DNA of 21,584 nucleotides from a virus: positions 1-21,584 of IMG/VR virus record IMGVR_UViG_3300030101_003167, one strand, 5' to 3'. The notes beneath the pieces were generated by a model. That model searched no databases and was not told where the DNA came from. It saw only the letters and a list, made by a program, of their open reading frames with translations. Shown in pieces: positions 1 through 20,193 of this stretch. A program made the translations under genes and the position numbers. Positions within the stretch are counted from its first letter, which is position 1, and every line of letters begins with the position of its first letter.

Positions 1-208
1 CAACGGCACAAATTAAATACTTGTGTCTATTGCTAAACGGAAACGGCTCAGTAAGATGAGTATGACAGAACAGACGATTAAGCGTAACGAACTTAAGAAA
101 GGCTATAAATGCCTGTGGTAATGGGTTAAGAGACCGAAACGAGCAACACCTAAGTAAATATTATATGGTGTTGTGTTGTATTGAATTTAACTAACTAAGG
201 AGAAAAAA
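1..208 (+). other. Noncoding, probably structured leader region
   Basis: No convincing gene lies here, and base composition is richer in G and C than the small genes that follow. Short self-complementary pieces are visible: CACAA/TTGTG (8-12 with 21-25), CTCA/TGAG (47-50 with 57-60), TTAAG/CTTAA near 78-96, AGGC/GCCT near 100-114, and GCTC at 46-49 that could pair with GAGC at 141-144 to close a multi-branch fold. A 21-codon frame (56-121, starting MSMTEQTIKRN) has no ribosome-binding site and is not called. It may be the 3' part of a structured RNA or a long leader cut by the window edge. It matches no RNA family that I can name. Confidence 0.35.
145..190 (+). repeat. Hairpin-box linker 1 (divergent copy)
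   Basis: AACACC (145-150) pairs with GGTGTT (167-172) around a 16-nt loop. The sequence GTATTGAATTTAAC then resembles the box GTCTTGAATTTAAC of the later linkers, with one change, and AGGAG follows at 198-202 before the ATG at 209. The loop is longer than in the other copies, so membership in the linker family is less certain. Confidence 0.5.
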
Positions 209-508
209 ATGAAAATTACACTAAATTTTTACGGATTTGAAAGAGCATTTCAAAGATACGGAAGAAGCGAACATTTTTCGTATGAAGGCTTACAGGCATT
301 ATTTGAATGGTTGGAAGATTTAGAAGATTGTAACGGAAAAGAGCAAGAGTTAGATGTTATTGGACTTTGTTGTGATTTTTCTGAATATGATAATTTAAAA
401 GAGTTTCAAAATGATTACGGAAAAGATTACGAGTGTATCGAAGATATTGAAAACGATACAATAGTAATACCAATAAATAACGAATCATTTATAATACAAC
501 AATTTTAA
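209..508 (+). CDS. Small acidic hypothetical protein (99 aa)
   Basis: This is the first gene of the small-gene array. ATG follows AGGAGAAAAAA, a good ribosome-binding site at normal distance. The protein is strongly acidic and aromatic, with a Glu/Asp-rich middle (FEWLEDLEDC near residues 32-41) and a Cys-Cys pair in GLCCDF near residue 54. No signal peptide or membrane segment is visible. Its look resembles acidic early phage proteins that bind host proteins or mimic DNA, but that is only a guess from composition. It sits alone between linkers 1 and 2, so it behaves as one cassette. The function is unknown. Confidence 0.8.
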   Translation: MKITLNFYGFERAFQRYGRSEHFSYEGLQALFEWLEDLEDCNGKEQELDVIGLCCDFSEYDNLKEFQNDYGKDYECIEDIENDTIVIPINNESFIIQQF

Positions 509-512
509 ATAA

Positions 513-546
513 TAAGTGGTGGTTCACTATAAAAAACGTCTTGAAT
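513..546 (+). repeat. Hairpin-box linker 2
   Basis: AGTG (515-518), loop GTGGTT, CACT (525-528), then ATAAAAAA, then the box CGTCTTGAAT (537-546), then AGGAG (553-557) before ATG 564. The 35 nt from 513 to 547 recur exactly at 1463-1497 in linker 6. No T-run follows the stem, so it does not look like an intrinsic terminator. Confidence 0.85.
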
Positions 547-563
547 TAACTTAGGAGAAAAAA

Positions 564-782
564 ATGAAAGTAGATTTAACAACATTATCTAAAATGAATA
601 AATATAAAGAAAATCTTTTAGTATCTGATGACGCTATATTTAGTTATTTAACAAAGGTTGGAATTTTAGACCATTTCAATCAACAAATACACGTTGATAA
701 ATGGTGGTCTGTTACTACAAGTAAACATATTAATTATGTTGCAAAACAATATGATTATGAAGTAATAAAGCATTACGAATAA
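564..782 (+). CDS. Small hypothetical protein (72 aa)
   Basis: ATG is preceded by TTAGGAGAAAAAA. The 72-residue product is soluble-looking, of mixed charge, with a Trp-Trp pair (DKWWSV near residue 47) and a His/Tyr-rich C-terminus. There is no recognisable domain. Codon use is as AT-rich as that of its neighbours. It occupies one cassette between linkers 2 and 3, separated from both neighbours, so it is not translationally coupled to them. The function is unknown. It is called as a gene because the start, the ribosome-binding site and the linker architecture match nine other genes. Confidence 0.75.
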   Translation: MKVDLTTLSKMNKYKENLLVSDDAIFSYLTKVGILDHFNQQIHVDKWWSVTTSKHINYVAKQYDYEVIKHYE

Positions 783-789
783 TTATAAA

Positions 790-815
790 GGGAGATTACA
801 TCTCCCGTCTTGAAT
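790..815 (+). repeat. Hairpin-box linker 3
   Basis: A perfect 7-bp stem GGGAGAT (790-796) / ATCTCCC (800-806) with loop TAC runs straight into the box CCGTCTTGAAT (805-815). AAGGAGAATAA then leads to ATG 832. The arm sequence is unrelated to linker 2, but the box is identical. Confidence 0.85.
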
Positions 816-831
816 TTAACAAGGAGAATAA

Positions 832-1002
832 ATGAATTTAACAAAACATATTGAATATTTAGAAAATGGATTAAAATACTATAATGAAAAATTAAAATCA
901 AATAACATTAATGACATTCTTAATGAAGACTATTATTTAGAAAAAAGATTTTTTATAACTACTCAATTACATTTTATAAATATACATTTTATAAATAAAT
1001 AA
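832..1002 (+). CDS. Small hypothetical protein (56 aa)
   Basis: The start is fixed by AAGGAGAATAA directly before ATG. The product begins MNLTKHIEYLENGLKYY and is rich in Asn, Lys, Ile and Tyr. The first 40 residues look helical (heptad-like Leu/Ile spacing), and the last 15 (QLHFINIHFINK) contain a short near-repeat, FIN. No domain, signal or clear membrane span is visible. It is one cassette of the array: linker 3 is upstream, and the linker 4 hairpin starts 6 nt after its stop codon. The function is unknown. Its existence rests on the ribosome-binding site and cassette layout, because the frame is short. Confidence 0.65.
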   Translation: MNLTKHIEYLENGLKYYNEKLKSNNINDILNEDYYLEKRFFITTQLHFINIHFINK

Positions 1003-1007
1003 CCAAA

Positions 1008-1032
1008 GGGAGCAACTGCTCCCGTCTTGAAT
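1008..1032 (+). repeat. Hairpin-box linker 4
   Basis: A perfect 6-bp stem GGGAGC (1008-1013) / GCTCCC (1018-1023) with loop AACT, immediately followed by CCGTCTTGAAT. Then TATAAATGGAGAATAA leads to ATG 1049. Compared with linker 3, the inner stem pairs differ while complementarity is kept. Confidence 0.85.
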
Positions 1033-1048
1033 TATAAATGGAGAATAA

Positions 1049-1219
1049 ATGAAAAAATTAATATATGCGAAAACTCTCATAAATGGGCAAGAAAAACATT
1101 TAGCAGACGTTAGTTATAAGCCTGTTAGTTATGTTGCTCAAAACCTTATAAAATTGGCGTTATATCCTACATTATACGCTTTATATTTATATTTAGCACT
1201 ACAATTCATAAGCAATTAA
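1049..1219 (+). CDS. Small probable membrane protein (56 aa)
   Basis: ATG follows TGGAGAATAA. The N-terminal half is polar and basic (MKKLIYAKTL...). From about residue 29 to the end the chain is hydrophobic and rich in Leu, Tyr and Ala (NLIKLALYPTLYALYLYLAL), long enough for one membrane-spanning helix near the C-terminus, with only QFISN left after it. This would leave the N-terminal part in the cytoplasm. Small early membrane proteins of phages often act on the host envelope or in exclusion of other phages, but nothing here shows that. It lies between linkers 4 and 5. The function is unknown. Confidence 0.65.
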   Translation: MKKLIYAKTLINGQEKHLADVSYKPVSYVAQNLIKLALYPTLYALYLYLALQFISN

Positions 1220-1243
1220 TTTTCGCTTCTATTTCCTACCATT

Positions 1244-1276
1244 GAGCCGATTATATGTCGGCTCTCCGTCTTGAAT
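1244..1276 (+). repeat. Hairpin-box linker 5
   Basis: A 7-bp stem GAGCCGA (1244-1250) / TCGGCTC (1258-1264) with loop TTATATG, two nt, then CCGTCTTGAAT (1266-1276), then AAAAGGAGAAAGA and ATG 1293. Confidence 0.85.
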
Positions 1277-1292
1277 AATAAAAGGAGAAAGA

Positions 1293-1454
1293 ATGAAAAC
1301 TTATGAAATACAATATAGACTTTCAAATAATGATATATGTAATTATACATTTGAGGGCAAAAATAAAACAGAAGCAATCAAAAATTATAATAACGAAACA
1401 GGTTGTCCAAAATCTGCTATTATATACGTTGAAGAAATAACTGATTTAATATAA
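1293..1454 (+). CDS. Small hypothetical protein (53 aa)
   Basis: ATG follows AAAAGGAGAAAGA. The product begins MKTYEIQYRLSNNDIC, and its alternating polar and hydrophobic pattern suggests a small beta-alpha-beta fold: a first strand (YEIQYRL), a helix (KTEAIKNYNN) and a last strand (SAIIYVEEI). That pattern is common in tiny phage and plasmid proteins of unknown role. Two Cys residues (16 and 38) are not arranged as a metal site. It is a single cassette between linkers 5 and 6. The function is unknown. Confidence 0.7.
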   Translation: MKTYEIQYRLSNNDICNYTFEGKNKTEAIKNYNNETGCPKSAIIYVEEITDLI

Positions 1455-1462
1455 CTTCTTGT

Positions 1463-1496
1463 TAAGTGGTGGTTCACTATAAAAAACGTCTTGAAT
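1463..1496 (+). repeat. Hairpin-box linker 6
   Basis: Stem AGTG/CACT with loop GTGGTT, then CGTCTTGAAT at 1487-1496. It is identical to linker 2 over 35 nt although it lies about 950 nt away. AAAGGAGAAAGA precedes ATG 1517. Confidence 0.85.
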
Positions 1497-1516
1497 TTTA
1501 AACTAAAGGAGAAAGA

Positions 1517-1717
1517 ATGAAAAAGCAAGATGTAATAATAGATGTATGGGAAACAGAAGACCATTACGAAATTGTAAGAGTATATTTAGCATATAAACCT
1601 ACTGGCGAACATATACCACCTGACAATACTCAATCTGGAGGTTTTTTTCTATATGGTATTGAAGATTACTATTTTGAAGAATGGAATGTTATAGATGATT
1701 ACAGATGTGAATCATAA
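1517..1717 (+). CDS. Small acidic hypothetical protein (66 aa)
   Basis: ATG is preceded by AAAGGAGAAAGA. The 66-residue product is acidic and very rich in aromatic residues (Trp, Tyr, Phe), with a Gly-rich middle (TQSGGFFLYG near residues 38-47) and a DYYFEEW stretch just after it. No metal site, signal or membrane segment is visible. It occupies one cassette between linkers 6 and 7. The family is not recognised and the function is unknown. Confidence 0.75.
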   Translation: MKKQDVIIDVWETEDHYEIVRVYLAYKPTGEHIPPDNTQSGGFFLYGIEDYYFEEWNVIDDYRCES

Positions 1718-1720
1718 TAA

Positions 1721-1755
1721 TAAGTGGTGGCTCACTATAAACTGCCGTTTTGAAT
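1721..1755 (+). repeat. Hairpin-box linker 7
   Basis: AGTG (1723-1726), loop GTGGCT, CACT (1733-1736), then the box variant GCCGTTTTGAAT (C changed to T). The 36 nt from 1721 to 1756 recur exactly at 2496-2531 in linker 10. AAAAGGAGAAAGA precedes ATG 1772. Confidence 0.85.
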
Positions 1756-1771
1756 TATAAAAGGAGAAAGA

Positions 1772-1909
1772 ATGGAATTTGCAGAATGTAACAGATGTTA
1801 CGATACATTTGCTAATGAATGGGATTTTGGCTGTGCAGTATATGAAGAAGGACACCAATACGACCATTGCTGGTTATGTGATTATTGTTATGGAGAACTA
1901 TTTCCATAA
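1772..1909 (+). CDS. Small Cys-rich, probably zinc-binding protein (45 aa)
   Basis: The start follows AAAAGGAGAAAGA and is chosen over an overlapping frame that opens at 1779 without a ribosome-binding site. The 45-residue product contains CNRC (residues 6-9), a single Cys at 21, His at 28, DHC (31-33) and CDYC (36-39). Paired CxxC knuckles at both ends with His between them fit one small treble-clef or rubredoxin-like zinc site. The chain is acidic and aromatic outside these residues, so it is more likely a protein-protein than a DNA-binding module, which is inference. It lies between linkers 7 and 8; the linker 8 stem begins 7 nt after its stop codon. Confidence 0.7.
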   Translation: MEFAECNRCYDTFANEWDFGCAVYEEGHQYDHCWLCDYCYGELFP

Positions 1910-1916
1910 AAAGTTT

Positions 1917-1943
1917 GGCGATACTATAATCGCCGTCTTGAAT
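1917..1943 (+). repeat. Hairpin-box linker 8
   Basis: Stem GGCGAT (1917-1922) / ATCGCC (1929-1934), loop ACTATA, running straight into CCGTCTTGAAT, then AAAGGAGAAAGA and ATG 1959. Confidence 0.85.
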
Positions 1944-1958
1944 AATAAAGGAGAAAGA

Positions 1959-2108
1959 ATGAAATTAAAAAATAGAATAATTAATTATTTAGAAGATACA
2001 CTTGGAGAATTTCAAAGTGGTATATTGAAATATGACAATATAAATTTTCAGAAAGAAATTATAAATGAAACAGAAAATCTTTTAGATATAATTAAAAAAG
2101 AAATGTAA
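1959..2108 (+). CDS. Small helical hypothetical protein (49 aa)
   Basis: The start at 1959 follows AAAGGAGAAAGA. The same frame is open further upstream, but there it runs antisense to the logic of linker 8 and the Cys-rich gene. The 49-residue product begins MKLKNRIINYLEDTLGEF. It is highly charged and looks alpha-helical throughout, with Leu/Ile every three to four residues (ENLLDIIKKEM at the end), so a small coiled coil or helical hairpin is likely. The family is not recognised. It is one cassette between linkers 8 and 9. Confidence 0.65.
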   Translation: MKLKNRIINYLEDTLGEFQSGILKYDNINFQKEIINETENLLDIIKKEM

Positions 2109-2113
2109 TAACA

Positions 2114-2145
2114 AGAGGTGGCTCTCTATAAAAAGCGTCTTGAAT
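2114..2145 (+). repeat. Hairpin-box linker 9
   Basis: AGAG (2114-2117), loop GTGGCT, CTCT (2124-2127), then ATAAAAAG and the box CGTCTTGAAT (2136-2145). Relative to linkers 2, 6, 7 and 10, the middle stem pair T:A has become A:T, a compensatory change that supports the stem. AAAGGAGAAAGA precedes ATG 2164. Confidence 0.85.
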
Positions 2146-2163
2146 TTAACTAAAGGAGAAAGA

Positions 2164-2487
2164 ATGAAATACACAGAAAAAGCATATATAAATATTGAAC
2201 TTGGAACTGCTACTTGGAATGTTGATTTAGAGCATAATGGTATGCAAGATATACTTGACGAGGGTATTGACTGCACAGAATGTGAAGTTTATGAACTTAT
2301 ATATGAGGGGCATATGTTAGAAGAAGATGAACTAAAAGAACTTTTAGATAATAAAAGTGAATCAATGTTATATCCTCTTTATTGTTTTGATACTTTATCT
2401 TATAAAGATTGGCTTGAATATAAAAAAGAAGCCGAAGCAGAAGATAAATATCGTGAAGAACAAAGATTAAAACAAATGCAAAAATAG
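2164..2487 (+). CDS. Acidic hypothetical protein (107 aa)
   Basis: ATG 2164 is chosen because AAAGGAGAAAGA lies directly before it. A longer in-frame start (TTG 2140) would sit inside the linker box. This is the largest product of the array at 107 residues, and it is strongly acidic. Residues about 1-20 look like a beta hairpin (YINIELGTATWNVDL). The middle has a DCTECEVYEL segment and a helical EEDELKELLDN stretch. The last 30 residues are highly charged and helical (KEAEAEDKYREEQRLKQ), possibly a coiled coil. The family is not recognised. Confidence 0.8.
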   Translation: MKYTEKAYINIELGTATWNVDLEHNGMQDILDEGIDCTECEVYELIYEGHMLEEDELKELLDNKSESMLYPLYCFDTLSYKDWLEYKKEAEAEDKYREEQRLKQMQK

Positions 2488-2495
2488 CTTATTGT

Positions 2496-2530
2496 TAAGT
2501 GGTGGCTCACTATAAACTGCCGTTTTGAAT
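2496..2530 (+). repeat. Hairpin-box linker 10
   Basis: Exact 36-nt duplicate of linker 7: AGTG (2498-2501), loop GTGGCT, CACT (2508-2511), then GCCGTTTTGAAT. AAAAGGAGAATAA precedes ATG 2552. Confidence 0.85.
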
Positions 2531-2551
2531 TTTAAACAAAAGGAGAATAAA

Positions 2552-2716
2552 ATGAATAAAGATAAAAGATGTAGTTTTAGGGTAGTAATTGTAGTTAATG
2601 ATGTAGCAGACCAATCTGTAAAAGATATGCAATATAATGCTCAAAATTATATTAAAGACGATATTAAAAATGATAATCTTTATATTGAAGATATTATAAA
2701 AATAGATAATAACTAA
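2552..2716 (+). CDS. Small hypothetical protein (54 aa)
   Basis: ATG 2552 follows AAAAGGAGAATAA. A TTG start at 2525 would lie in the linker box and is rejected. The product begins MNKDKRCSFRVVIVVNDVADQ, a basic head followed by a hydrophobic strand, then a Lys/Asp/Asn-rich helix and a short final strand (LYIEDIIKI), a small beta-alpha-beta layout. It is the last gene that has a clear linker in front of it. The function is unknown. Confidence 0.7.
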   Translation: MNKDKRCSFRVVIVVNDVADQSVKDMQYNAQNYIKDDIKNDNLYIEDIIKIDNN

Positions 2717-2720
2717 TACT

Positions 2721-2945
2721 ATGACCTATGATGAATGTTTAAATGCAAGAATCCTAAGCCCCAGACATTATAATCTGGGGTTGATTCTCGCTATGACCTA
2801 CGAAGTTATGCCGTCATACAAGTTTAGATATTTTATAAAGACAGGTCTATCTAATTTCAATCCTAACCTTGAGAATTTGTCTGCCCTTCTGGTGTTCTCA
2901 TTATTATATTTAGTCCCAGAAGTCTTTAACCAACTGACTAAATAA
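2721..2945 (+). CDS. Doubtful open frame over a structured region (74 codons)
   Basis: The frame is open from ATG 2721 to TAA 2945, but the start has no ribosome-binding site (TAACTAATACT precedes it), unlike every other gene in this part. Codon use is less AT-biased, with more CTT, CTG, GTC and TTC. The predicted chain holds MTYDE at the start and MTYEV at residue 25, from a direct DNA repeat, and ends with a hydrophobic stretch (LSALLVFSLLYLV) that could span a membrane. A strong hairpin lies inside it. Either this is a weakly expressed small membrane protein, or the region is a structured RNA or regulatory DNA and the open frame is chance. Confidence 0.35.
   Translation: MTYDECLNARILSPRHYNLGLILAMTYEVMPSYKFRYFIKTGLSNFNPNLENLSALLVFSLLYLVPEVFNQLTK
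2748..2788 (+). other. Strong two-part hairpin
   Basis: AGAATC (2748-2753) pairs with GATTCT (2783-2788), and inside it CCCCAGA (2759-2765) pairs with TCTGGGG (2774-2780) around loop CATTATAA. The two stems are separated by an asymmetric internal loop (CTAAG opposite TT). The sequence CTATGACCTA occurs on both sides, at 2719-2728 and 2791-2800. There is no T-run after it, so it is not a standard terminator. Confidence 0.7.
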
Positions 2946-3077
2946 GGATTATAATATATAAAAACATTATAATTATAAACAAACTTTTTATTATAATTAT
3001 AAATAAACAAATAAATGTTTTGGAAATTAAAATATTTATTATAAATTATGCAAAGAATTATAAATGGAGAATTATAA
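2946..3077 (+). promoter_or_regulatory. AT-rich control region with two palindromes
   Basis: This gap ahead of the repressor gene is nearly all A and T. It holds two exact copies of the 12-bp palindrome TTATAATTATAA at 2967-2978 and 2991-3002, with starts 24 bp apart, each followed by AAACAAAC or ATAAAC. They are reasonable candidates for operators of the adjacent HTH protein, or for iteron-like sites. A TATAAT at 2950-2955 and those inside the palindromes could be -10 boxes, but no matching -35 box stands out. The ribosome-binding site GGAGAATTATAA of the next gene ends the region. Confidence 0.4.
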
Positions 3078-4110: not shown

Positions 4111-4323
4111 ATGGAAAAAATAAACATGGTAGATTTTGCGAATGAATTACTTTCAGGTAATGTAAAAAAGATTGATTATGATTTAATCAAATCAGAAGCA
4201 AAAGCCGAATGTAAACGATTTGCAAAGCTACAAGAAAATAGATTTAATAACAATGTTATTATAAATTTTGAAGTAATAACAAAAAAAGAAGCAGAAGAAC
4301 AAGGAGAAGTTAATGGAAAATAA
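4111..4323 (+). CDS. Small hypothetical protein (70 aa)
   Basis: ATG 4111 is preferred over the in-frame ATG 4099 because GGAG at 4101-4104 lies at a normal distance before it; the earlier start would sit inside the end of the previous gene without a ribosome-binding site. The product begins MEKINMVDFANELLSGNVKK and is mostly helical and charged, with a short strand near the end (NNVIINFEVI) and the tail KKEAEEQGEVNGK. Its 3' end overlaps the SSB-like gene by 11 nt and carries the AAGGAGAAG ribosome-binding site for it. The function is unknown. Confidence 0.75.
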   Translation: MEKINMVDFANELLSGNVKKIDYDLIKSEAKAECKRFAKLQENRFNNNVIINFEVITKKEAEEQGEVNGK

Positions 4324-4531
4324 AGATATGACTGGTGTACTATTTATGGTTGATGACCGAGCAAGCGATAAGCATCCCAATCTTACAGGGAATTGTACTA
4401 TAAAAGGCGAGAAGTATTATATCTCAGCTTGGACTAATACCTCTAAGAATGGAAAGAAATACATAAGTCTTAAACTTAATGAAGAACAAAAAAAACAAGA
4501 ACCTAAAACCGATAACGATTTACCATTTTAA
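4313..4531 (+). CDS. Small SSB-like protein with acidic C-terminal tip (72 aa)
   Basis: The 72-residue product has the look of a minimal OB-fold-like single-strand-binding protein. A beta-rich core (LTGNCTIKGEKYYISAWTNT, then SKNGKKYISLKL near residues 45-56) is followed by a flexible charged linker and the terminal NDLPF. A terminal acid-acid-x-P-F tip is the hallmark through which bacterial SSBs recruit replication and repair enzymes. The sequence also resembles the DUF736-type proteins of phages. It would coat single-stranded DNA near the annealing protein encoded two genes upstream. It is much shorter than bacterial SSB (about 110 residues of OB fold), so it could instead be a modulator carrying an SSB-mimicking tip. 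The start is set by AAGGAGAAGTTA before ATG 4313. Confidence 0.6.
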   Translation: MENKDMTGVLFMVDDRASDKHPNLTGNCTIKGEKYYISAWTNTSKNGKKYISLKLNEEQKKQEPKTDNDLPF

Positions 4532-4945: not shown

Positions 4946-5424
4946 TAGAAATCGCAATAAGAGAGAATGGTAGAGTTAGGTGGGTCAAAGTACACAAGTC
5001 AGTAATAAGCACATTGATAAATGGTAAAAAGGCTAAAACTGCTCTACCAATTTCTTCAAAAGAATTTGATAAATGGTGGAATTTGTATGACAAAAAAACC
5101 ACAAAAAAACAAACACTAACATATTGGAAAAAACATATAACAGATGATTTAGTCGAAAAGATTATGCAACATACTAAAAGTTATATTAAAGATAGAGAAA
5201 AAGTATATAGACTAGACCCAATAAGATATTTAAGGAATGAAAAATATAATGATGAAATTGTTACACAAGACACGAGAATTGATATTAAAGAGTATAAACA
5301 CGACACTACTGGTATGCCTATGGGAGAATGTAAGAGATGTGGTAAAAGAGATACTTACCTTAATCAATGGGAGCTTTATAAAGGCAGTAATTGTTGTGGC
5401 GAAAAAGTATTACCATTTAACTAA
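4942..5424 (+). CDS. Replication-organiser-like protein with zinc knuckle (160 aa)
   Basis: It starts with TTG 4942 in a TTGA overlap with the previous stop; no ATG lies early enough to keep the conserved core, so coupling is likely. Residues about 40-100 carry the pattern FDKWWNLYDKKTTKKQTLTYW, then helical segments and RLDPIRYLRNEKYND. This layout (W..Y..K..KK.A..W, then a P..YL..E.W-like end) is seen in phage replication initiator/helicase-loader proteins. The C-terminus has a zinc knuckle made of CKRCG near residue 132 and SNCCG near residue 150. It may recruit the host helicase to the phage origin; that role is inferred from resemblance and from its place in the operon. No helicase or primase gene is in view. 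Confidence 0.55.
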   Translation: MIEIAIRENGRVRWVKVHKSVISTLINGKKAKTALPISSKEFDKWWNLYDKKTTKKQTLTYWKKHITDDLVEKIMQHTKSYIKDREKVYRLDPIRYLRNEKYNDEIVTQDTRIDIKEYKHDTTGMPMGECKRCGKRDTYLNQWELYKGSNCCGEKVLPFN

Positions 5425-5892: not shown

Positions 5893-6200
5893 TGCCAAAT
5901 AAAAGTAAAGCCAAAGGTAATAGATTTGAACGTGAGATTGTGGAAGCAGTAGAACTACATGAAGTAAAAGCAGTTCGTGCTTGGGGCAGTAATGGTAAAG
6001 CATTTGGACACCACGAGGAAGTCGATATATTAATTGATGATGATATTAAGGTACAAGCGAAAGTTCGTAAGGCTTTGCCCAAATGGATTAAACCTACTGA
6101 ACACGTTGATATACAAGTTATAAAAGAGGATAGAGGAAAGATGTATGTAGTACAAGAATTGAATGATTGGTTAGTTAATTTAAAGGAGAAAAAATGTTAA
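5892..6200 (+). CDS. PD-(D/E)XK nuclease, Holliday junction resolvase-like (102 aa)
   Basis: Predicted small nuclease of the archaeal Hjc/phage resolvase type, which cuts branched recombination or replication intermediates. Visible core: an N-terminal basic start and NRFEREIVEAVELHEVKAV (helix with the conserved Glu), RAWGSNGKAFGHHEEVDILI (Gly-rich turn, then the catalytic Asp in EVDIL), then IKVQAKVRK, where Q-x-K stands in place of the usual E-x-K, a known variation. The C-terminal part (PTEHVDIQVIKEDRGKMYVV) gives the closing strands. The length fits the family. It starts in a TAATG overlap and ends 7 nt inside the endonuclease gene, with AAAGGAG for that gene within its own last codons. 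It should work together with the annealing protein at 3309. Confidence 0.75.
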   Translation: MPNKSKAKGNRFEREIVEAVELHEVKAVRAWGSNGKAFGHHEEVDILIDDDIKVQAKVRKALPKWIKPTEHVDIQVIKEDRGKMYVVQELNDWLVNLKEKKC

Positions 6201-7006
6201 TTTATAAAGCTACTAACATACAAAATGATAAAGTATACTTTTCTATTACCTCAAAAAGATTAAATGATGCAATTTCTATACAAAAATCAAGAGCAAGAAT
6301 GCAGGAAAAAAAGATGAAATTTAAAAATGCATATAAAAGCAAAAACCCATTTCATAATGCATTAAATAAATATGGTGAACATAATTTTTATTATCAAATA
6401 ATTGATAAAAATTTAGGCAAAAAAGATGCTTATAAATTAAAAGAGAAACTAATTAAAGAGTATAAAGCAAACAATCCAAAGTATGGTTATAATTGTACTA
6501 CAGGTGGCTATTATTTTAAAAATAACAAAGAAACTATTGAAAAACAAAGCGAATCTAATAAAGGTAAAAAACTGCCTCAATATATGATAGATATGTTAAA
6601 ACAAAGAGTAGGAGAAAAACATCCTTGTTATGGATATAAACATACTGAAGAAGCAAAAAGAAATATGAGTGAAGGACAAAAAAATTCAGATTATGTACAA
6701 ACAGAAGAAATTAAGAAAAGAAAAAGCGAAACTATGAAGGCTCATTGGAAAAATCCAACAGAAAAAATGTTAAAAGACCTTTACAATAGAAAACATCAAA
6801 TAGGCTCAAGAGATATAAGAGGAAAAAAGAATCCTATGTATGGAAAGGGTATGAAAGGCAAAGATAATCCAATGTATGGTAAAAAAGGTAAATTACACCC
6901 ATCATATGGAGTACCTCTATCAAAAGAGAGGTTTGAAAAGTTGCAAAAAGGTAGAGAGAAATATCAAGCAAAAATAAAGAAACAAAAATTAGAAAACAAA
7001 ATTTAA
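6194..7006 (+). CDS. Free-standing GIY-YIG homing endonuclease with NUMOD3 repeats (270 aa)
   Basis: Homing-type endonuclease of the I-TevI/Seg kind. The N-terminal GIY-YIG domain spans about residues 1-100: IYKATN, KVYFSITSKRL, FHNALNKYGEHNF, LKEKLIKEY (position of the metal-binding Glu) and GYNCTTGG. The C-terminal half has NUMOD3-type DNA-binding repeats: GEKHPCYGYKHTEEAKRNMS near 140, GKKNPMYGKGMKGKDNPMYG near 210-230, and LHPSYGVPLSKERFEKL. The first motif is shifted (IYK), the YIG motif reads YFS, and the place of the catalytic Arg (about 11 residues after that Tyr) holds Ala 26. It may therefore be weakly active or inactive. It is not inside an intron: it follows the resolvase gene with its own AAAGGAGAAAAA and is very Lys/Asn-rich. 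Confidence 0.85.
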   Translation: MLIYKATNIQNDKVYFSITSKRLNDAISIQKSRARMQEKKMKFKNAYKSKNPFHNALNKYGEHNFYYQIIDKNLGKKDAYKLKEKLIKEYKANNPKYGYNCTTGGYYFKNNKETIEKQSESNKGKKLPQYMIDMLKQRVGEKHPCYGYKHTEEAKRNMSEGQKNSDYVQTEEIKKRKSETMKAHWKNPTEKMLKDLYNRKHQIGSRDIRGKKNPMYGKGMKGKDNPMYGKKGKLHPSYGVPLSKERFEKLQKGREKYQAKIKKQKLENKI

Positions 7007-7094: not shown

Positions 7095-7214
7095 ATGAAT
7101 TGGTATAATGTTGTTGTATATAGCTTAATATTTATATTAACTATAATAATATGGTATTTTTTAATATTTTGTGTAGATTGGATAAGTGAATGGCTAATAC
7201 TAAAGACTATATAA
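7095..7214 (+). CDS. Tiny membrane protein (39 aa)
   Basis: ATG follows TTAGGAGAATAA, a strong site at the right distance. The 39-residue product begins MNWYNVVVYSLIFILTIIIW and is hydrophobic from about residue 5 to 28, enough for one membrane-spanning helix, followed by an acidic, Trp-containing tail. It overlaps the next gene by 25 nt. Very small single-span proteins near early genes may act at the host membrane, but no family is recognised and it could also serve mainly to couple translation to the HNH gene. It is short, so its reality rests on the ribosome-binding site and the hydrophobic pattern. Confidence 0.6.
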   Translation: MNWYNVVVYSLIFILTIIIWYFLIFCVDWISEWLILKTI

Positions 7215-7459
7215 AATACATTAAGTCAAAGCATTGTATAATATGTGGTAGTTCGCCAGTAGACCCTGACCATTTAGAACATATTGGTATGGGTGGCGAT
7301 AGAACAAAACAATCAATTAAGGATTATAGTTGTGTACCTTTGTGCCGAATACACCACACAGAAAGACATAATTTAGGTACAGATAGGTTTGAACAAGAAC
7401 ACAACATAAACCTATGGAAAGAAGCATATTATTTATTAAGGGGGTATTTTGCAGAATGA
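7190..7459 (+). CDS. HNH nuclease, Ref/DUF968-like (89 aa)
   Basis: Predicted small HNH (beta-beta-alpha metal) nuclease acting in recombination. The motif order is clear: C16-x2-C19, DPDHLEH with the catalytic His at 28 or 31, the Gly-rich turn MGGDRTKQ, Asp 45, then PLCRIHHTERH (residues 50-60) and G63. This arrangement (C..C, H, K..D, PLC..HH...H..G) matches the phage P1 Ref and lambdoid YbcO/DUF968 group, whose members help RecA or repair cross-stranded DNA. The length of 89 fits the short forms. ATG lies inside the tiny membrane-protein gene with only a weak upstream GATAAGTGA, so coupling is likely. Its 3' end overlaps the next gene by 4 nt (ATGA). Confidence 0.8.
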   Translation: MANTKDYIKYIKSKHCIICGSSPVDPDHLEHIGMGGDRTKQSIKDYSCVPLCRIHHTERHNLGTDRFEQEHNINLWKEAYYLLRGYFAE

Positions 7460-9535: not shown

Positions 9536-10113
9536 TAATATCCTCCTGAGCCTCCTGAACTACCACCACCTGTTGTGTAAGTAGGTGTAGTAGATTGAAT
9601 TTGTTCTTGTTTTAATTTTTTTATTATTTTTTTATCTACTTTAGGTAAGTCGTAATCAGGTAAATTAAATTTAGTCTTTTTAGCAACACCTTTTTTTCTT
9701 CTATCTTTTATTTCATCCCAAGTTGTTTGACTTTTAAGAAAAGTAGTAGTTTCTTTTATCCAGTCAGATTTTTCATTTGTTACTTTACTTGCTATTTTTT
9801 GACCTTGTTTGTTTGCTAAAATAACTTTAGTTATATCAACTTGTCCAATGTATGTAAATAGTTGATGTTTAGTTATAGGTGTGCCGAAAATAGTAAAAAT
9901 AATTATTTTTTTATTATTACCTTGCATAATCCAATTATCTGGTAATGTTGGCGTAATTTCAGCTTTTCCACTAAAATTTATTTCTATTCCTAATATTTCA
10001 ACATCTGAATCTATACTACAATCACCATCATTACATACAATGGTAGCAAAACCATTTGCATATTGTAGTTGTTTAGAGTTATAAAATTTGCTTGTTCTTA
10101 TTGCTTTTCCCAT
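9535..10113 (-). CDS. Tail-associated structural protein with Gly-rich end (192 aa)
   Basis: The start is in a TAATG overlap with the large tail-tip gene. The first 80 residues are beta-rich (MGKAIRTSKFYNSKQLQYAN, GDCSIDSDVEILGIEINFSG). The middle is Lys-rich and helical (IKDRRKKGVAKKTKFNLPDY, KVDKKIIKKLKQEQ), and the last 15 residues are Thr, Ser, Gly and Tyr only (TTGGGSSGGSGGY), a flexible tail. Its N-terminal MGK..T..FY matches that of the next gene. It is probably a small tail-tip component. The family is not recognised. Confidence 0.75.
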   Translation of the reverse strand: MGKAIRTSKFYNSKQLQYANGFATIVCNDGDCSIDSDVEILGIEINFSGKAEITPTLPDNWIMQGNNKKIIIFTIFGTPITKHQLFTYIGQVDITKVILANKQGQKIASKVTNEKSDWIKETTTFLKSQTTWDEIKDRRKKGVAKKTKFNLPDYDLPKVDKKIIKKLKQEQIQSTTPTYTTGGGSSGGSGGY

Positions 10114-13100
10114 TATTGTCCTAAAATTAAATTTACTAAAATTACAACGTCTAATACATTTGTAATACCATCATCATTCATATCACCTCTTTCAAGTTCG
10201 CTATCTTCTACATTTGTTGCAGTTCCGTTTGCAATTTTTGCTAATCTAACAACATCTAAAACATTTGTTACATAATCACCATTTACATCACCAACAGGAT
10301 AAAAAACATTTTCACCAATTTGTTTAAAACTTACAAATTCTGTGTATTCATCAGCATTTTCAGATATTAAAGGAAATATTTTAATTTCAAATTCAAGTTC
10401 TGCATTTAATGGGTCAATAGCATATTTTTTTGTTATTGATAATTGACCACTAAATTCATCAGCTAAATTTGATTGTGTTTTAGAAACATGAAATAAATCT
10501 TCAATAAAAAAATCAAATTGTGGTTGATTAGTTTCGTCATAATCTCCATCTTCTAATGTTAAATTTATATCTTCAAATATAACACCACTACCATCAGGTG
10601 TACTAACTTTTTTCAAAGAAATTACATACATCCAATCTGATATAAGATTTTCATCCACATTCACATATACAGGACCATTATTTACAATAGTATTTTGACT
10701 TATACTAACATTAAATAAATCTATTTCAGGTTCGTCTTGGTCTATTGTTTCATCGCCATAAGATGGGTTATCAAATGGGTCGCCTAAATCTAAATTTATA
10801 TCACCATCGTTATTACTATTATCAAAAACAATACCATCATCGTCATTAAACATTTCATCATTTGGTATTCCATATTCGCCTCTATGAACTTGTACTGCTT
10901 CTATAGATACTTTTTCTATACTTTTTGTTATTTTTGTAATAAAGAATTGAGGATAAACAAATTGTCCATTTTTTATTGATGATTTTGTGTAATCATAACC
11001 GAAAACTTTTTGTTCATTTAATAATGAATCAAATTTTATGTAATCTCCTGATTCTAAATTAATATAATTAAGTGGTAAATCACACTTTACAATTAAATGT
11101 TGATTTGCATAAAAACTAACTAATCTTTGTTGTAATTTTCTTGCAGTTATGTTATCTCTTATATATTCACTTTCTACATCTAATTTAGCTTCTCCTTCTG
11201 TTAATCCATAATATTCTACATTATATCTTAATTCATCATTTGGATAAGTATCTTCAGGGTAAATTGCTTGTGTTAAAGCATCATAAGTTTGATAAGTTTG
11301 TTCTGTTTCCAAATCTTTTATAGCGTATGATGTATCTCCTTCAAATTCGCCTGAAGCATAATTTTTTTTATATAAAATTCTTACTTGATTTTTAACGTCA
11401 TCTAATTTTGTAAGTGTAAAATTATAACTAAAAACATCCTTTGCTTCAATCATTTGATATTCTATATTGTCTAATGTTTGATGTATTGGTATAAGTTTAA
11501 ATTGACCAAAATTATCATAAGATGGTATAGCTATAGAACTTTTATATAACCCTTCAAATACTTGCTTTAATTCTTTTTGTTCATTTAAAACAAAATCATA
11601 TTTCCAACCATCAAAAGTTGAATTGTTTTCTATATTTTGTTCAAAATTTGCTTCATTAGCTAATATATCTTTTGAAATATCTTCTATACGACTAATTTGA
11701 TTTCCATCACCATCAATTCTGCCAGCTACATTACCATAAAAATCTCTATTATTTAAATCATTTACTAATATATCTTGTAAAATATATAACTCTTTAAGAT
11801 TAGCTAAGCACCATTGATTATCACTGCCTCTTTTATTTAATGGAGAACCCCATTGTATACTATCAAAAGTATTAGTTTCATTCCATCCTTTTATTATATT
11901 TATATATGCAAATTGAGAAGATGTGTCAAATTGTGCATTTATATTAGAATCAATACGTTTTGAGTTACCATTATTACTATCACCATCATCAAAAATTGTT
12001 ACTACATCTTTGAAATATCCTTCATGAGTACCACTTGGAACCATAGCAGGAGTATACCAATCATCTTCTGGAATTTCTGATAAAGAACCTCTATTTTTTT
12101 GCCAATAAAATTTATTATCATTTTCTGTCATTTCTTCAAAGCCATCAGAACCATGTGAATATCTTTTTACTAATTCTTTTTCACACCAAAAATGTGTACA
12201 CATCATATCATTAGTTTTGTCTGCTAAACTATCATTTATTGTTAATGGTCTTATTGTACTAACATTGTAAAAAACTTTAGTAACACATGGATAACTTCCT
12301 ACAGATTTTAATTGAAATCTAGCATAAGCACCTGAATCTCTAAAATTAACACCTTTATAATGTAATCCACTTTCATTATTACCATTTTGTACCCATTGTG
12401 GATTAAATTCTTGTGGTTCATTATAATTTTGCCAGTTTATATCTTTAGTAGCATATATTTCTTTATCAGGTATTACACTTTCAGTATCGTTAATTGCAGT
12501 AGGCTGCCACCAATACATAGTTGGACTTGGATTATTGTCAGGATTCCAATCATTTTCATATTCAGTTTGCATAAAACTATCTGTTACATTTGGCGTAACT
12601 TCATTATTAGCATCACTTTCAGTATAACCTTCCATATATTCTCTTATATTTTCATCAGCAATATTACCATTATTTTGATAGCCAACAAATTTATTACATG
12701 ATAAATATAATGGTGAAAAAACATCTTCTTCATCTGTTTGTACTTGTATTTGATTTTCTTGATTTATAGCAAAAAATGTAACTTTATCTATTGGTCTATA
12801 AACTCTTGCTGGTATACCTATACTGCCTGTACCTTCTAATTCTCCATCTATTTCTGTATATTGTGAATATACAAGTGCATTTGAATTTAATTTAAAATTT
12901 GCCGAAATACCATCTACAGCATTATCAAATGTATAAAATTCTAAATTAGTATAATCTAAATCACCAAAATTATATGGTCTTGAACCCCAACTTTGTACAC
13001 CTCTTTGAAAAATATGTAAAAAAGATTCATCATAAACAGACACAAAAGCATTATTTCTTAAAAAACCTCTAGTATACATTTTATGAGATTGTGTAACATC

Positions 13101-13796
13101 TTCATTTTCAAAATCAACTTGAGTTCCTTCATTCCAAGTTCCAAATAATTGTTGATTAGGTTTGTCTATTTCTAATCTATCTAATTTATTATAAATAAGT
13201 GGAGTTGCATCTAAATTTCCATATACAGCAGGATATGGTTTACCAAAAAGATTTTCATCATATTGTACACTATCTTCTGGTATTAATGTGCTAGGTACTT
13301 GTATAGATAAAATTTGTTGTGTGTAATCTTCAAGATTTAATGTAATACTTTCTGCCGATTGATTAAAACGTCTAATAGTTCCTGTATACATTAATAAACT
13401 ATCTTCTAATGAATCAATACCATTACAAACAAAAAACACTTGACAAACAGATTTTAAATAATCAACTACATTATCACTAAACTTTTTACCAGAATATTCG
13501 TAATTAGATATATTAACAGACATACTAGATGTTGTAAATTTATTATTAATTAAATCTGCTGTTGTAGTTAAAGATGGTGTATTTATTAAAAGTGGCTCAT
13601 AATTTTCATAAACACCTGCAAAATTTTTAAGTGTTGTAGATTTTATAGATAAGTTTAAAACGCTATCAGATTGTCCTTCAAAATCTTGATTTTCCTCATC
13701 CAATCTAACACCTTTGTATATTCTCAATACAGGATATACAGATGTAGTTCTTGAACTTCCTAATGCACTTTTAAATTTTGGCGATAATTCAATCAT
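10113..13796 (-). CDS. Large tail-tip protein ending in a dockerin domain (1227 aa)
   Basis: By size and position directly after the tape measure this is the tail-tip/host-attachment protein, in the place of lambda gpJ. The N-terminus (MIELSPKFKSALGSS..., then TGTIRRFNQSAESITLNLEDY near 140-160 and FGKPYPAVYGN near 187) has the layout of tip-attachment proteins; the centre is long, beta-rich and acidic. The last 59 residues form a complete type I dockerin: GDVNGDYVTNVLDVV (1169-1183) and GDMNDDGITNVLDVV (1204-1218), each with Ca2+ ligands D-x-N-x-D-x-x-x-N-x-x-D. Dockerins bind cohesin domains, so the tip may dock a cohesin-bearing partner on the virion or the host surface. The start is in a TAATG overlap with the tape measure. 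Confidence 0.85.
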   Translation of the reverse strand: MIELSPKFKSALGSSRTTSVYPVLRIYKGVRLDEENQDFEGQSDSVLNLSIKSTTLKNFAGVYENYEPLLINTPSLTTTADLINNKFTTSSMSVNISNYEYSGKKFSDNVVDYLKSVCQVFFVCNGIDSLEDSLLMYTGTIRRFNQSAESITLNLEDYTQQILSIQVPSTLIPEDSVQYDENLFGKPYPAVYGNLDATPLIYNKLDRLEIDKPNQQLFGTWNEGTQVDFENEDVTQSHKMYTRGFLRNNAFVSVYDESFLHIFQRGVQSWGSRPYNFGDLDYTNLEFYTFDNAVDGISANFKLNSNALVYSQYTEIDGELEGTGSIGIPARVYRPIDKVTFFAINQENQIQVQTDEEDVFSPLYLSCNKFVGYQNNGNIADENIREYMEGYTESDANNEVTPNVTDSFMQTEYENDWNPDNNPSPTMYWWQPTAINDTESVIPDKEIYATKDINWQNYNEPQEFNPQWVQNGNNESGLHYKGVNFRDSGAYARFQLKSVGSYPCVTKVFYNVSTIRPLTINDSLADKTNDMMCTHFWCEKELVKRYSHGSDGFEEMTENDNKFYWQKNRGSLSEIPEDDWYTPAMVPSGTHEGYFKDVVTIFDDGDSNNGNSKRIDSNINAQFDTSSQFAYINIIKGWNETNTFDSIQWGSPLNKRGSDNQWCLANLKELYILQDILVNDLNNRDFYGNVAGRIDGDGNQISRIEDISKDILANEANFEQNIENNSTFDGWKYDFVLNEQKELKQVFEGLYKSSIAIPSYDNFGQFKLIPIHQTLDNIEYQMIEAKDVFSYNFTLTKLDDVKNQVRILYKKNYASGEFEGDTSYAIKDLETEQTYQTYDALTQAIYPEDTYPNDELRYNVEYYGLTEGEAKLDVESEYIRDNITARKLQQRLVSFYANQHLIVKCDLPLNYINLESGDYIKFDSLLNEQKVFGYDYTKSSIKNGQFVYPQFFITKITKSIEKVSIEAVQVHRGEYGIPNDEMFNDDDGIVFDNSNNDGDINLDLGDPFDNPSYGDETIDQDEPEIDLFNVSISQNTIVNNGPVYVNVDENLISDWMYVISLKKVSTPDGSGVIFEDINLTLEDGDYDETNQPQFDFFIEDLFHVSKTQSNLADEFSGQLSITKKYAIDPLNAELEFEIKIFPLISENADEYTEFVSFKQIGENVFYPVGDVNGDYVTNVLDVVRLAKIANGTATNVEDSELERGDMNDDGITNVLDVVILVNLILGQ

Positions 13797-20008: not shown

Positions 20009-20193
20009 TATCTATATCCTCCACCTGCTTTTTTATATGCTCTTGCTAACATCTGTGCTTTACGAGCTGACCATTGTCCTGCTCTACCACCTTTACTACC
20101 TGCTTTTATTCTATAAAATAATCTTTTACGCATAGCAGGTTTTGTGTAATTACCTGCTTTGTTTACTGTGCTTCTTTTACGTCTTTTTACCAT
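20008..20193 (-). CDS. Lys/Arg/Gly-rich protein, DUF6321-like (61 aa)
   Basis: The 61-residue product has MVKRRKRSTVNKAGNYTKPA, then MRKRLFYRIKAGSKGGRAG and QWSARKAQMLARAYKKAGGG. The KAGxYTKPxMRKxLFxxIKAGxKGG pattern followed by QWSARKAQ is a distinct, well-conserved small-protein family of environmental phages and viruses (DUF6321-like). Its highly basic, Gly-containing sequence suggests nucleic-acid binding, which is inference. It overlaps the previous gene by 7 nt (ATGGTAA). Confidence 0.7.
   Translation of the reverse strand: MVKRRKRSTVNKAGNYTKPAMRKRLFYRIKAGSKGGRAGQWSARKAQMLARAYKKAGGGYR

Follow-up and report, generated by a model that had tools for sequence, protein, structure and literature searches.

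An array of ten small genes behind structured linkers

We analyzed a 21,584-base virus record, IMG/VR record IMGVR_UViG_3300030101_003167 (here called the window), with early genes encoded by the + strand and structural genes by the − strand. Near its start lies an array of ten small genes, each preceded by a linker, and every unit has the order helix, box, A/U spacer, GGAG, and ATG, with a Shine-Dalgarno sequence of the AAGGAG or TGGAG type at all ten genes. The original prediction, made from the sequence alone, described ten tiny genes that each follow a hairpin and a conserved 10-nucleotide (nt) box with one diverged copy. All ten linkers were found; six of them (2, 6, 7, 8, 9, and 10) are read here as pseudoknots and the others as plain hairpins. 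The conserved box is the nine-letter GTYTTGAAT, and the C or CC ahead of it is mostly part of the stem. Nine exact copies occur in the window, all on the + strand and inside linkers; across the whole window, none was found outside linkers and none on the − strand. The tenth copy, TATTGAAT at 179-186, is diverged and lies behind the hairpin at 145-172, before gene 1. With two mismatches allowed, the 10-mer by itself is not rare (25 found versus 18 expected), and what makes the linkers nonrandom is that the matches are exact, share their position and strand, and adjoin a helix.

Pairing is retained while the arms of the helices change

The arms of the plain hairpins had been said to differ but to stay complementary, and this was borne out. 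All 105 positions in 21 distinct arm pairs are paired, against a mean of 56 and a maximum of 77 in 10,000 shuffles, and the arms vary freely (for example, GGGAGC/GCTCCC, GAGCCGA/TCGGCTC, and GGGGGG/CCCCCC). The non-Watson-Crick pairs comprise four G·U and no A·C, as expected for sense-strand RNA.

The AGTG and AGAG linkers are best read as H-type pseudoknots rather than plain hairpins. In the predicted plan, stem 1 pairs AGTG with CACT, stem 2 pairs GGCT in the loop with AGCC just 5′ of the box, and there is an A-rich loop, ATAAA. Covarying forms were seen for both stem 1 (AGTG/CACT, AGAG/CTCT, AGTA/TACT, and AGTT/AACT) and stem 2 (GGCT/AGCC, GGTT/AAC, and GGCGA/TCGCC). In an alignment of 13 sequences, 95.9% of positions were paired compared with 88.2% in shuffles; the covariation score was 0.244 compared with 0.116, a value reached in 0 of 500 shuffles, with double changes at three pairs, single events being few and related copies being counted separately. 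Stem 2 shows one clear double change in this alignment, plus the GGCGA type outside it, and these comparisons leave it well supported but not proved. For both kinds of helix, 0 to 3 nt separate the helix end from the box; the exceptions are the first linker of an array and one weak copy at 5121 of the related contig L060. Compensatory changes are thus present in hairpins and pseudoknots alike, and it appears to be the pairing, not the sequence, that is under selection.

We built a covariance model of the pseudoknot class with stem 1 only; the model does not extend to the plain hairpins because MAFFT misaligned their 5′ arms. The model gave 28 matches, all within linker-bearing contigs, and none in 22 other records. 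Rfam searches of the window and the related contigs L005, L060, and L016 (the L060 array at E values up to 1) returned no match, including to the preQ1-I family.

Linkers are associated with the downstream start

In the window, the boxes start 24 to 30 nt 5′ of the ATG. Over 51 linkers from four phages, the distance from box start to ATG is 26.6 nt (standard deviation [SD], 2.8), whereas that from the previous stop codon to the box is looser, at 30.3 nt (SD, 8.8). We therefore assign the linker to the gene downstream; gene 1 has a linker copy although no gene precedes it. The spacer and Shine-Dalgarno sequence are A/U rich and strong throughout. As originally noted, the linkers carry no visible promoter: 21 promoter-like sites were found compared with 22.3 in shuffles, and they were not tied to linkers.

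Related phages carry tiny-gene arrays with or without linkers

Pattern scans of IMG/VR located the box of the window also in L005, L060, and L016; for the scan with CGTCTTGAAT plus GGAGAA, this holds for the matches listed. A complete IMG/VR scan with TTGAAT and a stricter start gave no array beyond those already known, and a scan of a genome collection for the box-plus-ribosome-site pattern gave single matches per contig and no array. A scan with the RusA-like protein yielded 53 related loci, including L193, and L228 was reached through the pseudoknot sequence. Linker arrays, which the original prediction had expected in related phages, are thus present in five other IMG/VR contigs (L005, L060, L016, L228, and L193) and in none of about 50 further relatives. 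The sample amounts to four phages, with every contig a fragment and the alignments manual in part; L005 and L060, 99.5% identical over 4.9 kb, were counted as one. One 34-nt linker sequence forms both the end of L228 and the start of L193, two contigs from a single metagenome; the split is an assembly break at the repeat, and because of this shared linker the two contigs may be one phage.

The window and L060 have 10 linkers each and L016 has 18, and one L060 linker precedes a reading frame of just 16 codons. In L193 and L228 the linkers are the same, but all copies have GTTCTAAT or GTYTCAAT in place of the box of the window, so that the box is lineage specific. That it is fixed within a lineage and changed in every L193/L228 copy suggests a trans-acting reader.

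The linker-less relatives have arrays of tiny genes too, without the hairpin linker. Seven of them (L175, L182, L187, L188, L195, L198, and L202) show other repeated junctions between tiny genes, TTAATAACTAATAGAAAGGA..ATG or AATAGGAGATTAAAAAAATG, without a hairpin. The arrays of L016 and L193 also have the TTAATAACTAATAGAAAGGA..ATG type, at their distal ends.

Genes are exchanged without their linkers

The original prediction held that the linkers let small genes be shuffled. Genes are indeed exchanged, but the linker is not the traveling unit, and the breakpoints lie at the ATG and the stop codon. Between phages with and without linkers, some open reading frames (ORFs) are 94 to 97% identical from ATG to stop while both flanks are near the shuffled level (L016 6307 and L189 4705; L016 2980 and L179 2659; L193 2039 and L175 6572). 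In the last pair, the flanks are 52 to 68% identical compared with a shuffled mean of 58 to 62%. Because the ORFs are this similar while the flanks are near chance, we regard the linker as part of the array and not of the gene. Genes move as bare ORFs, with the linker of the recipient staying in place.

Comparisons among the genes of the array are consistent with this separation. Orthologues of gene 10 have four kinds of upstream region: a pseudoknot in the window, a hairpin in L016, the other box in L193, and no linker in L175 and L182. The GAGCCGA linker precedes gene 5 in the window and a different gene in L060 and L016, and the GGGGGG linker of L060 and L016 keeps its place while the next gene differs. 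When linker-bearing phages are compared with one another, conservation of the linker can exceed that of the gene, at 94% versus 78% (the 50 nt upstream of gene 4 and its ORF, compared with L060) and 96% versus 75%.

Integron cassettes were considered as a parallel and rejected. An attC site lies at the 3′ end of its gene, travels with it, has a GTTRRRY core, and is acted on by an integrase. The linkers are start associated and are left behind when genes move, and the box is not GTTRRRY.

A long noncoding leader accompanies the linkers

A noncoding region of about 330 to 480 nt precedes every array whose 5′ end is covered (Table 1). In the window, its 3′ end terminates in the conserved GGGTTAANARACCGAAAC, a motif shared with L005, L060, L016, and L228 and seen in no other contig. 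The 3′ motif ATGGGTTAANARACCGAAAC (window 121-140) matched exactly L005, L016, L060, and L228 in a search of all IMG/VR and was lacking in linker-less relatives that cover the upstream genes and the array (for example, L173, L175, L182, L187, L195, L198, L199, and L202). Leader and linkers therefore co-occur. The leader has no long + strand ORF, has a GC content of 0.41 compared with 0.275 in the array, and folds slightly better than shuffles (z scores of −1.9 in L060 and −2.2 in L016). No known RNA family was found for the copies in the window, L005, L060, and L016. In L016, a promoter-like TTGATT-16-TATATT pair precedes the leader, a match no better than many chance ones. We also considered that the leader might be antisense to the box (AATTCAAC in L060 and L016; AAATTGG in L228). 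This was not supported, as runs of equal length occurred in 438, 496, and 480 of 500 shuffled leaders.

A second conserved RNA was observed between the array and the repressor gene (window 2712-2950; L060 5826-6090). It is also present in L182, L192, L178, L209, L204, L168, L193, and L175, linker-less relatives included, and ten sequences show compensatory changes at 8 of 14 predicted pairs. Rfam searches of the window, L005, L060, and L016 gave no match to it. The listed ORF at 2721-2945 is probably not a gene.

The linkers as proposed leaders of a translational regulon

Pairing that is kept while the sequence changes, on the sense strand and at a fixed place before the ribosome site, argues for an action on RNA near the translation start. 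We tentatively propose that the linkers are start-associated mRNA leader elements forming a translational regulon with a putative trans-acting reader, a reading that we consider plausible but slightly short of probable. The array would be transcribed early as one long polycistronic message, probably from a single promoter ahead of the noncoding leader, and each cistron would have a linker as its structured 5′ leader. The helix, a plain hairpin or the second stem of a pseudoknot, would end at GTYTTGAAT and keep the box and the A/U spacer of about 6 to 12 nt before the Shine-Dalgarno sequence single stranded. An RNA-binding protein encoded by the phage would be the most likely trans-acting factor to read the box next to the helix end and to raise, lower, or time the translation of all array genes together. 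Such a plan would resemble the T4 gene 32 operator, with copies spread over a regulon. It builds on the structures, their covariation, the start association, the concerted box change, the co-occurrence with the leader, and the exchange of ORFs alone; the single promoter, the action in translation, and the protein reader are what we infer.

One candidate leader-binding factor is the phage single-stranded DNA binding protein (SSB) encoded downstream (Table 1), whose own gene has no linker before it in the window. Several observations weigh against the proposal. The SSB is also present in linker-less relatives, and no gene was found in all linker-bearing phages yet absent from linker-less ones, among contigs that are short and relatives mostly covered within 10 kb of one gene; because no such restricted gene turned up, we assign no reader. 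Since relatives have linker-free orthologues of array genes, these genes as such do not need the linker. The concerted box change could be explained by gene conversion among the repeats rather than by coevolution. Only part of the linkers are pseudoknots, whereas the T4 gene 32 protein (gp32) needs one, and CTGC variants of the pseudoknot retain just two stem 2 pairs.

A further reading, which we regard as possible but doubtful, is a two-part phage system of RNA control. The long structured leader would act with ten to eighteen interchangeable helix-plus-box elements, both parts being present or both absent, and a lineage-specific reader would recognize the short box beside any helix end, whether of a hairpin or of a pseudoknot, and so control any gene placed behind it.

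Alternative explanations

Processing sites would be expected to show the same arrangement: a sense-strand structure in which a single-stranded A/U box follows a helix, found at nearly all junctions of cistrons and at that of the leader with gene 1. A phage or host endoribonuclease would cut at the box beside the helix to give single-gene messages, and the helix would shield the 3′ end of the upstream piece. We consider this unlikely, since the spacing of the element is held to the downstream start and not to the upstream stop, no nuclease was identified, and a tight nine-letter box exceeds what most RNase E sites need. Somewhat less likely again is that the helix just keeps the ribosome site open, independently of its neighbors and with no trans-acting factor, as in a general standby or insulator leader. 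The position tolerates any stable structure, and the spacer and Shine-Dalgarno sequence are always A/U rich and strong, as such leaders would have it; a fixed box with concerted lineage change and the strict co-occurrence with the leader are left unexplained.

We give little credence to the linkers being repeats kept mainly so that an annealing protein (Sak) can swap genes. Downstream of the array lie genes for Sak, Orf/NinB, the SSB, and a resolvase-like protein, and arrays gain and lose genes while linker 5 and the GGGGGG linker stay put before differing genes. However, compensatory changes lower DNA identity yet keep RNA pairing, which selection for homology would not do, and exchanges with linker-less phages break at the ATG and stop, not in the linker. 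Beside the recombination genes, the window also encodes a homing endonuclease-like protein with a NUMOD3 motif and an HNH-type protein (6194-7006 and 7190-7459).

A transcriptional role appears the least credible of these alternatives: the linkers would either be antitermination sites resembling boxB-boxA or serve as pause sites or weak terminators that the leader overrides. Some GTTTTGAAT hairpins are terminator-like on the + strand in L016, the hairpin-then-box order resembles that of rrn boxB-boxA, and the leader co-occurs. Classical boxA is GCTCTTTAACA and is bound by NusB/S10; the box here fits it poorly, a loose likeness only. Intrinsic terminators, a GC stem followed by a U run, were rejected: most copies lack a T-rich tail, the 4-bp stem 1 of the pseudoknot sits 9 to 10 nt from the box, too far for such a signal, and no + strand terminator site was found in the window. 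Some L016 hairpins pass as terminators on either strand, more often the − strand, with scores probably due to A-rich flanks. In L168 (200-6765), the − strand of the array has an excess of terminator-like sites, with 9 of the 14 found there and 1.5 expected in all, so that some hairpins might serve to halt antisense transcripts arriving from the convergent structural genes.

Comparison with known systems

The linkers had been likened to the promoter-early-stem-loop (PeSL) cassettes of T4-like phages, in which stem-loop linkers with a promoter lie between small early genes that differ between phages. Stem-loops between small early genes are common to both; the linkers differ in having no promoter and a fixed box after the stem. 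The preQ1-I riboswitch, an H-type pseudoknot of small size, has its A-rich third loop close to the ribosome site, a description that also fits the pseudoknot linkers, but the loop here is far too short for the ligand pocket.

With pseudoknots in half of the linkers, closer comparisons than PeSL are offered by the start-associated repeats of actinobacteriophages and by the gene 32 translational operator of T4 and RB69 (PMC535899, PMC3014915). The T4 operator opens with a pseudoknot of about 28 nt, after which come UUAAA/UAAA elements and, last, the ribosome site (PMC535899). The linkers likewise combine a predicted H-type pseudoknot of about 25 nt, an A/U-rich single-stranded stretch, and a ribosome site in a phage that encodes its own SSB. 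In contrast to the operator, they precede ten to eighteen genes instead of one, accept plain hairpins, and have a fixed box after the helix. Their spacers often hold TTAA or TAAA, in a region that is A/T rich anyway.

The SAS and ESAS of cluster K mycobacteriophages and cluster EF Microbacterium phages are repeats beside the starts of many small nonstructural genes, with a consensus that differs by lineage, orthologues with and without the element, an open function, and a conserved 13-mer that is the ribosome site itself, of the GGGATAGGAGCCC type (PMC3203893, PMC7302621). For the 17-bp inverted repeats of cluster K, the authors saw little support for RNA pairing or hairpins (PMC3203893). Like these repeats, the linkers lie close to starts of nonstructural genes, have an inverted-repeat part upstream (as in cluster K) and a lineage-specific consensus, and occur before only some orthologues. 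Unlike them, they have ribosome sites of AAGGAGAA or TGGAGAA and no GGGATAGGAGCCC-type 13-mer, their arms vary with full compensation, part of them are pseudoknots, and the box stands between helix and ribosome site. Cluster EG Microbacterium phages have 8 to 10 short inverted repeats 14 to 22 bp upstream of starts, kept though the genes around them differ (PMC7302621); there conservation is of the sequence itself (GATCAACCNNGGTTGATC), whereas in the linkers it is of the pairing and not of the sequence. The repeats of cluster O show no link to starts (PMC4351075). We therefore group the linkers with phage start-associated repeats, without making them members of the cluster K/EF, cluster O, or PeSL types.

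Start-associated repeats have been reported in several phage groups with their function open, and here many copies support the structure through compensatory change. A natural control, which makes the role of such repeats testable, comes from relatives that have these genes but no linkers. A phage in which pseudoknot leaders are numerous would add a second, larger case, provided that their role in translation is confirmed. The ATG-to-stop exchange shows how arrays of accessory genes are refilled while control elements stay.

Genes of the array and other features of the window

As predicted, the array genes are unrelated to each other, with no homology among their proteins beyond one marginal match (18 residues; E = 0.008), and no family match of an array gene points to host takeover. 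An array gene of L016 (L168 1172-1579) encodes a peptide deformylase (phrog_2890; E = 2.9e-24) and has a linker-less relative in L175.

Table 1. Coordinates of linkers, array genes, leader copies, and SSB gene (window positions unless a contig is named; boxes of linkers 2 to 10 are exact matches to GTYTTGAAT)
Feature	Position	Strand	Description
Leader, 3′ end	1..144	+	
Leader, L060	2528-2990		
Leader, L168	322-832		
Leader, L228	11292-11620		
Linker 1	145..186	+	hairpin AACACC/GGTGTT; diverged box
Gene 1	209..508	+	99 amino acids (aa); phrog_9974 (function not assigned in family); 94% identical in L060
Linker 2	515..546	+	pseudoknot AGTG/CACT + GGTT/AAC; box GTCTTGAAT 538-546
Gene 2	564..782	+	72 aa; phrog_5643 (function not assigned in family); orthologues in L060 and L228 (each behind a different pseudoknot linker) and L189 (no linker)
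Linker 3	790..815	+	hairpin GGGAGAT/ATCTCCC; box 807-815
Gene 3	832..1002	+	56 aa; no relative found
Linker 4	1008..1032	+	hairpin GGGAGC/GCTCCC; box 1024-1032; also precedes gene 4 orthologue in L060 and L016
Gene 4	1049..1219	+	56 aa
Linker 5	1244..1276	+	hairpin GAGCCGA/TCGGCTC; box 1268-1276
Gene 5	1293..1454	+	53 aa; no relative found
Linker 6	1465..1496	+	pseudoknot AGTG/CACT + GGTT/AAC; box 1488-1496
Gene 6	1517..1717	+	66 aa; relatives without linker in L189 and L199
Linker 7	1723..1755	+	pseudoknot AGTG/CACT + GGC/GCC; box GTTTTGAAT 1747-1755
Gene 7	1772..1909	+	45 aa; Cys-rich; no relative found
Linker 8	1912..1943	+	pseudoknot AGT/ACT + GGCGAT/ATCGCC; box 1935-1943
Gene 8	1959..2108	+	49 aa
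Linker 9	2114..2145	+	pseudoknot AGAG/CTCT + GCT/AGC; box 2137-2145
Gene 9	2164..2487	+	107 aa; no family above cut-off
Linker 10	2498..2530	+	pseudoknot AGTG/CACT + GGC/GCC; box GTTTTGAAT 2522-2530
Gene 10	2552..2716	+	54 aa
SSB gene	4313..4531	+	phage single-stranded DNA binding protein; C terminus DNDLPF; phrog_7364, E = 1.8e-9

In a search for the host, the RusA-like protein had no relative in a collection of 84,980 genomes, and the clues consist of weak links to Methylophilales phages, with nothing stronger. Among the structural genes, a 1,227-aa protein (10113-13796, − strand) has no match in an annotated phage collection and carries a C-terminal type I dockerin-like domain (PF00404; E = 5.2e-5, above the cut-off). 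The sole near-DNA match of the window to a cultured phage, 84% over 142 bases (20032-20173), is to Methylophilales phage MEP402 and lies within a small gene near the MEP402 terminase gene.

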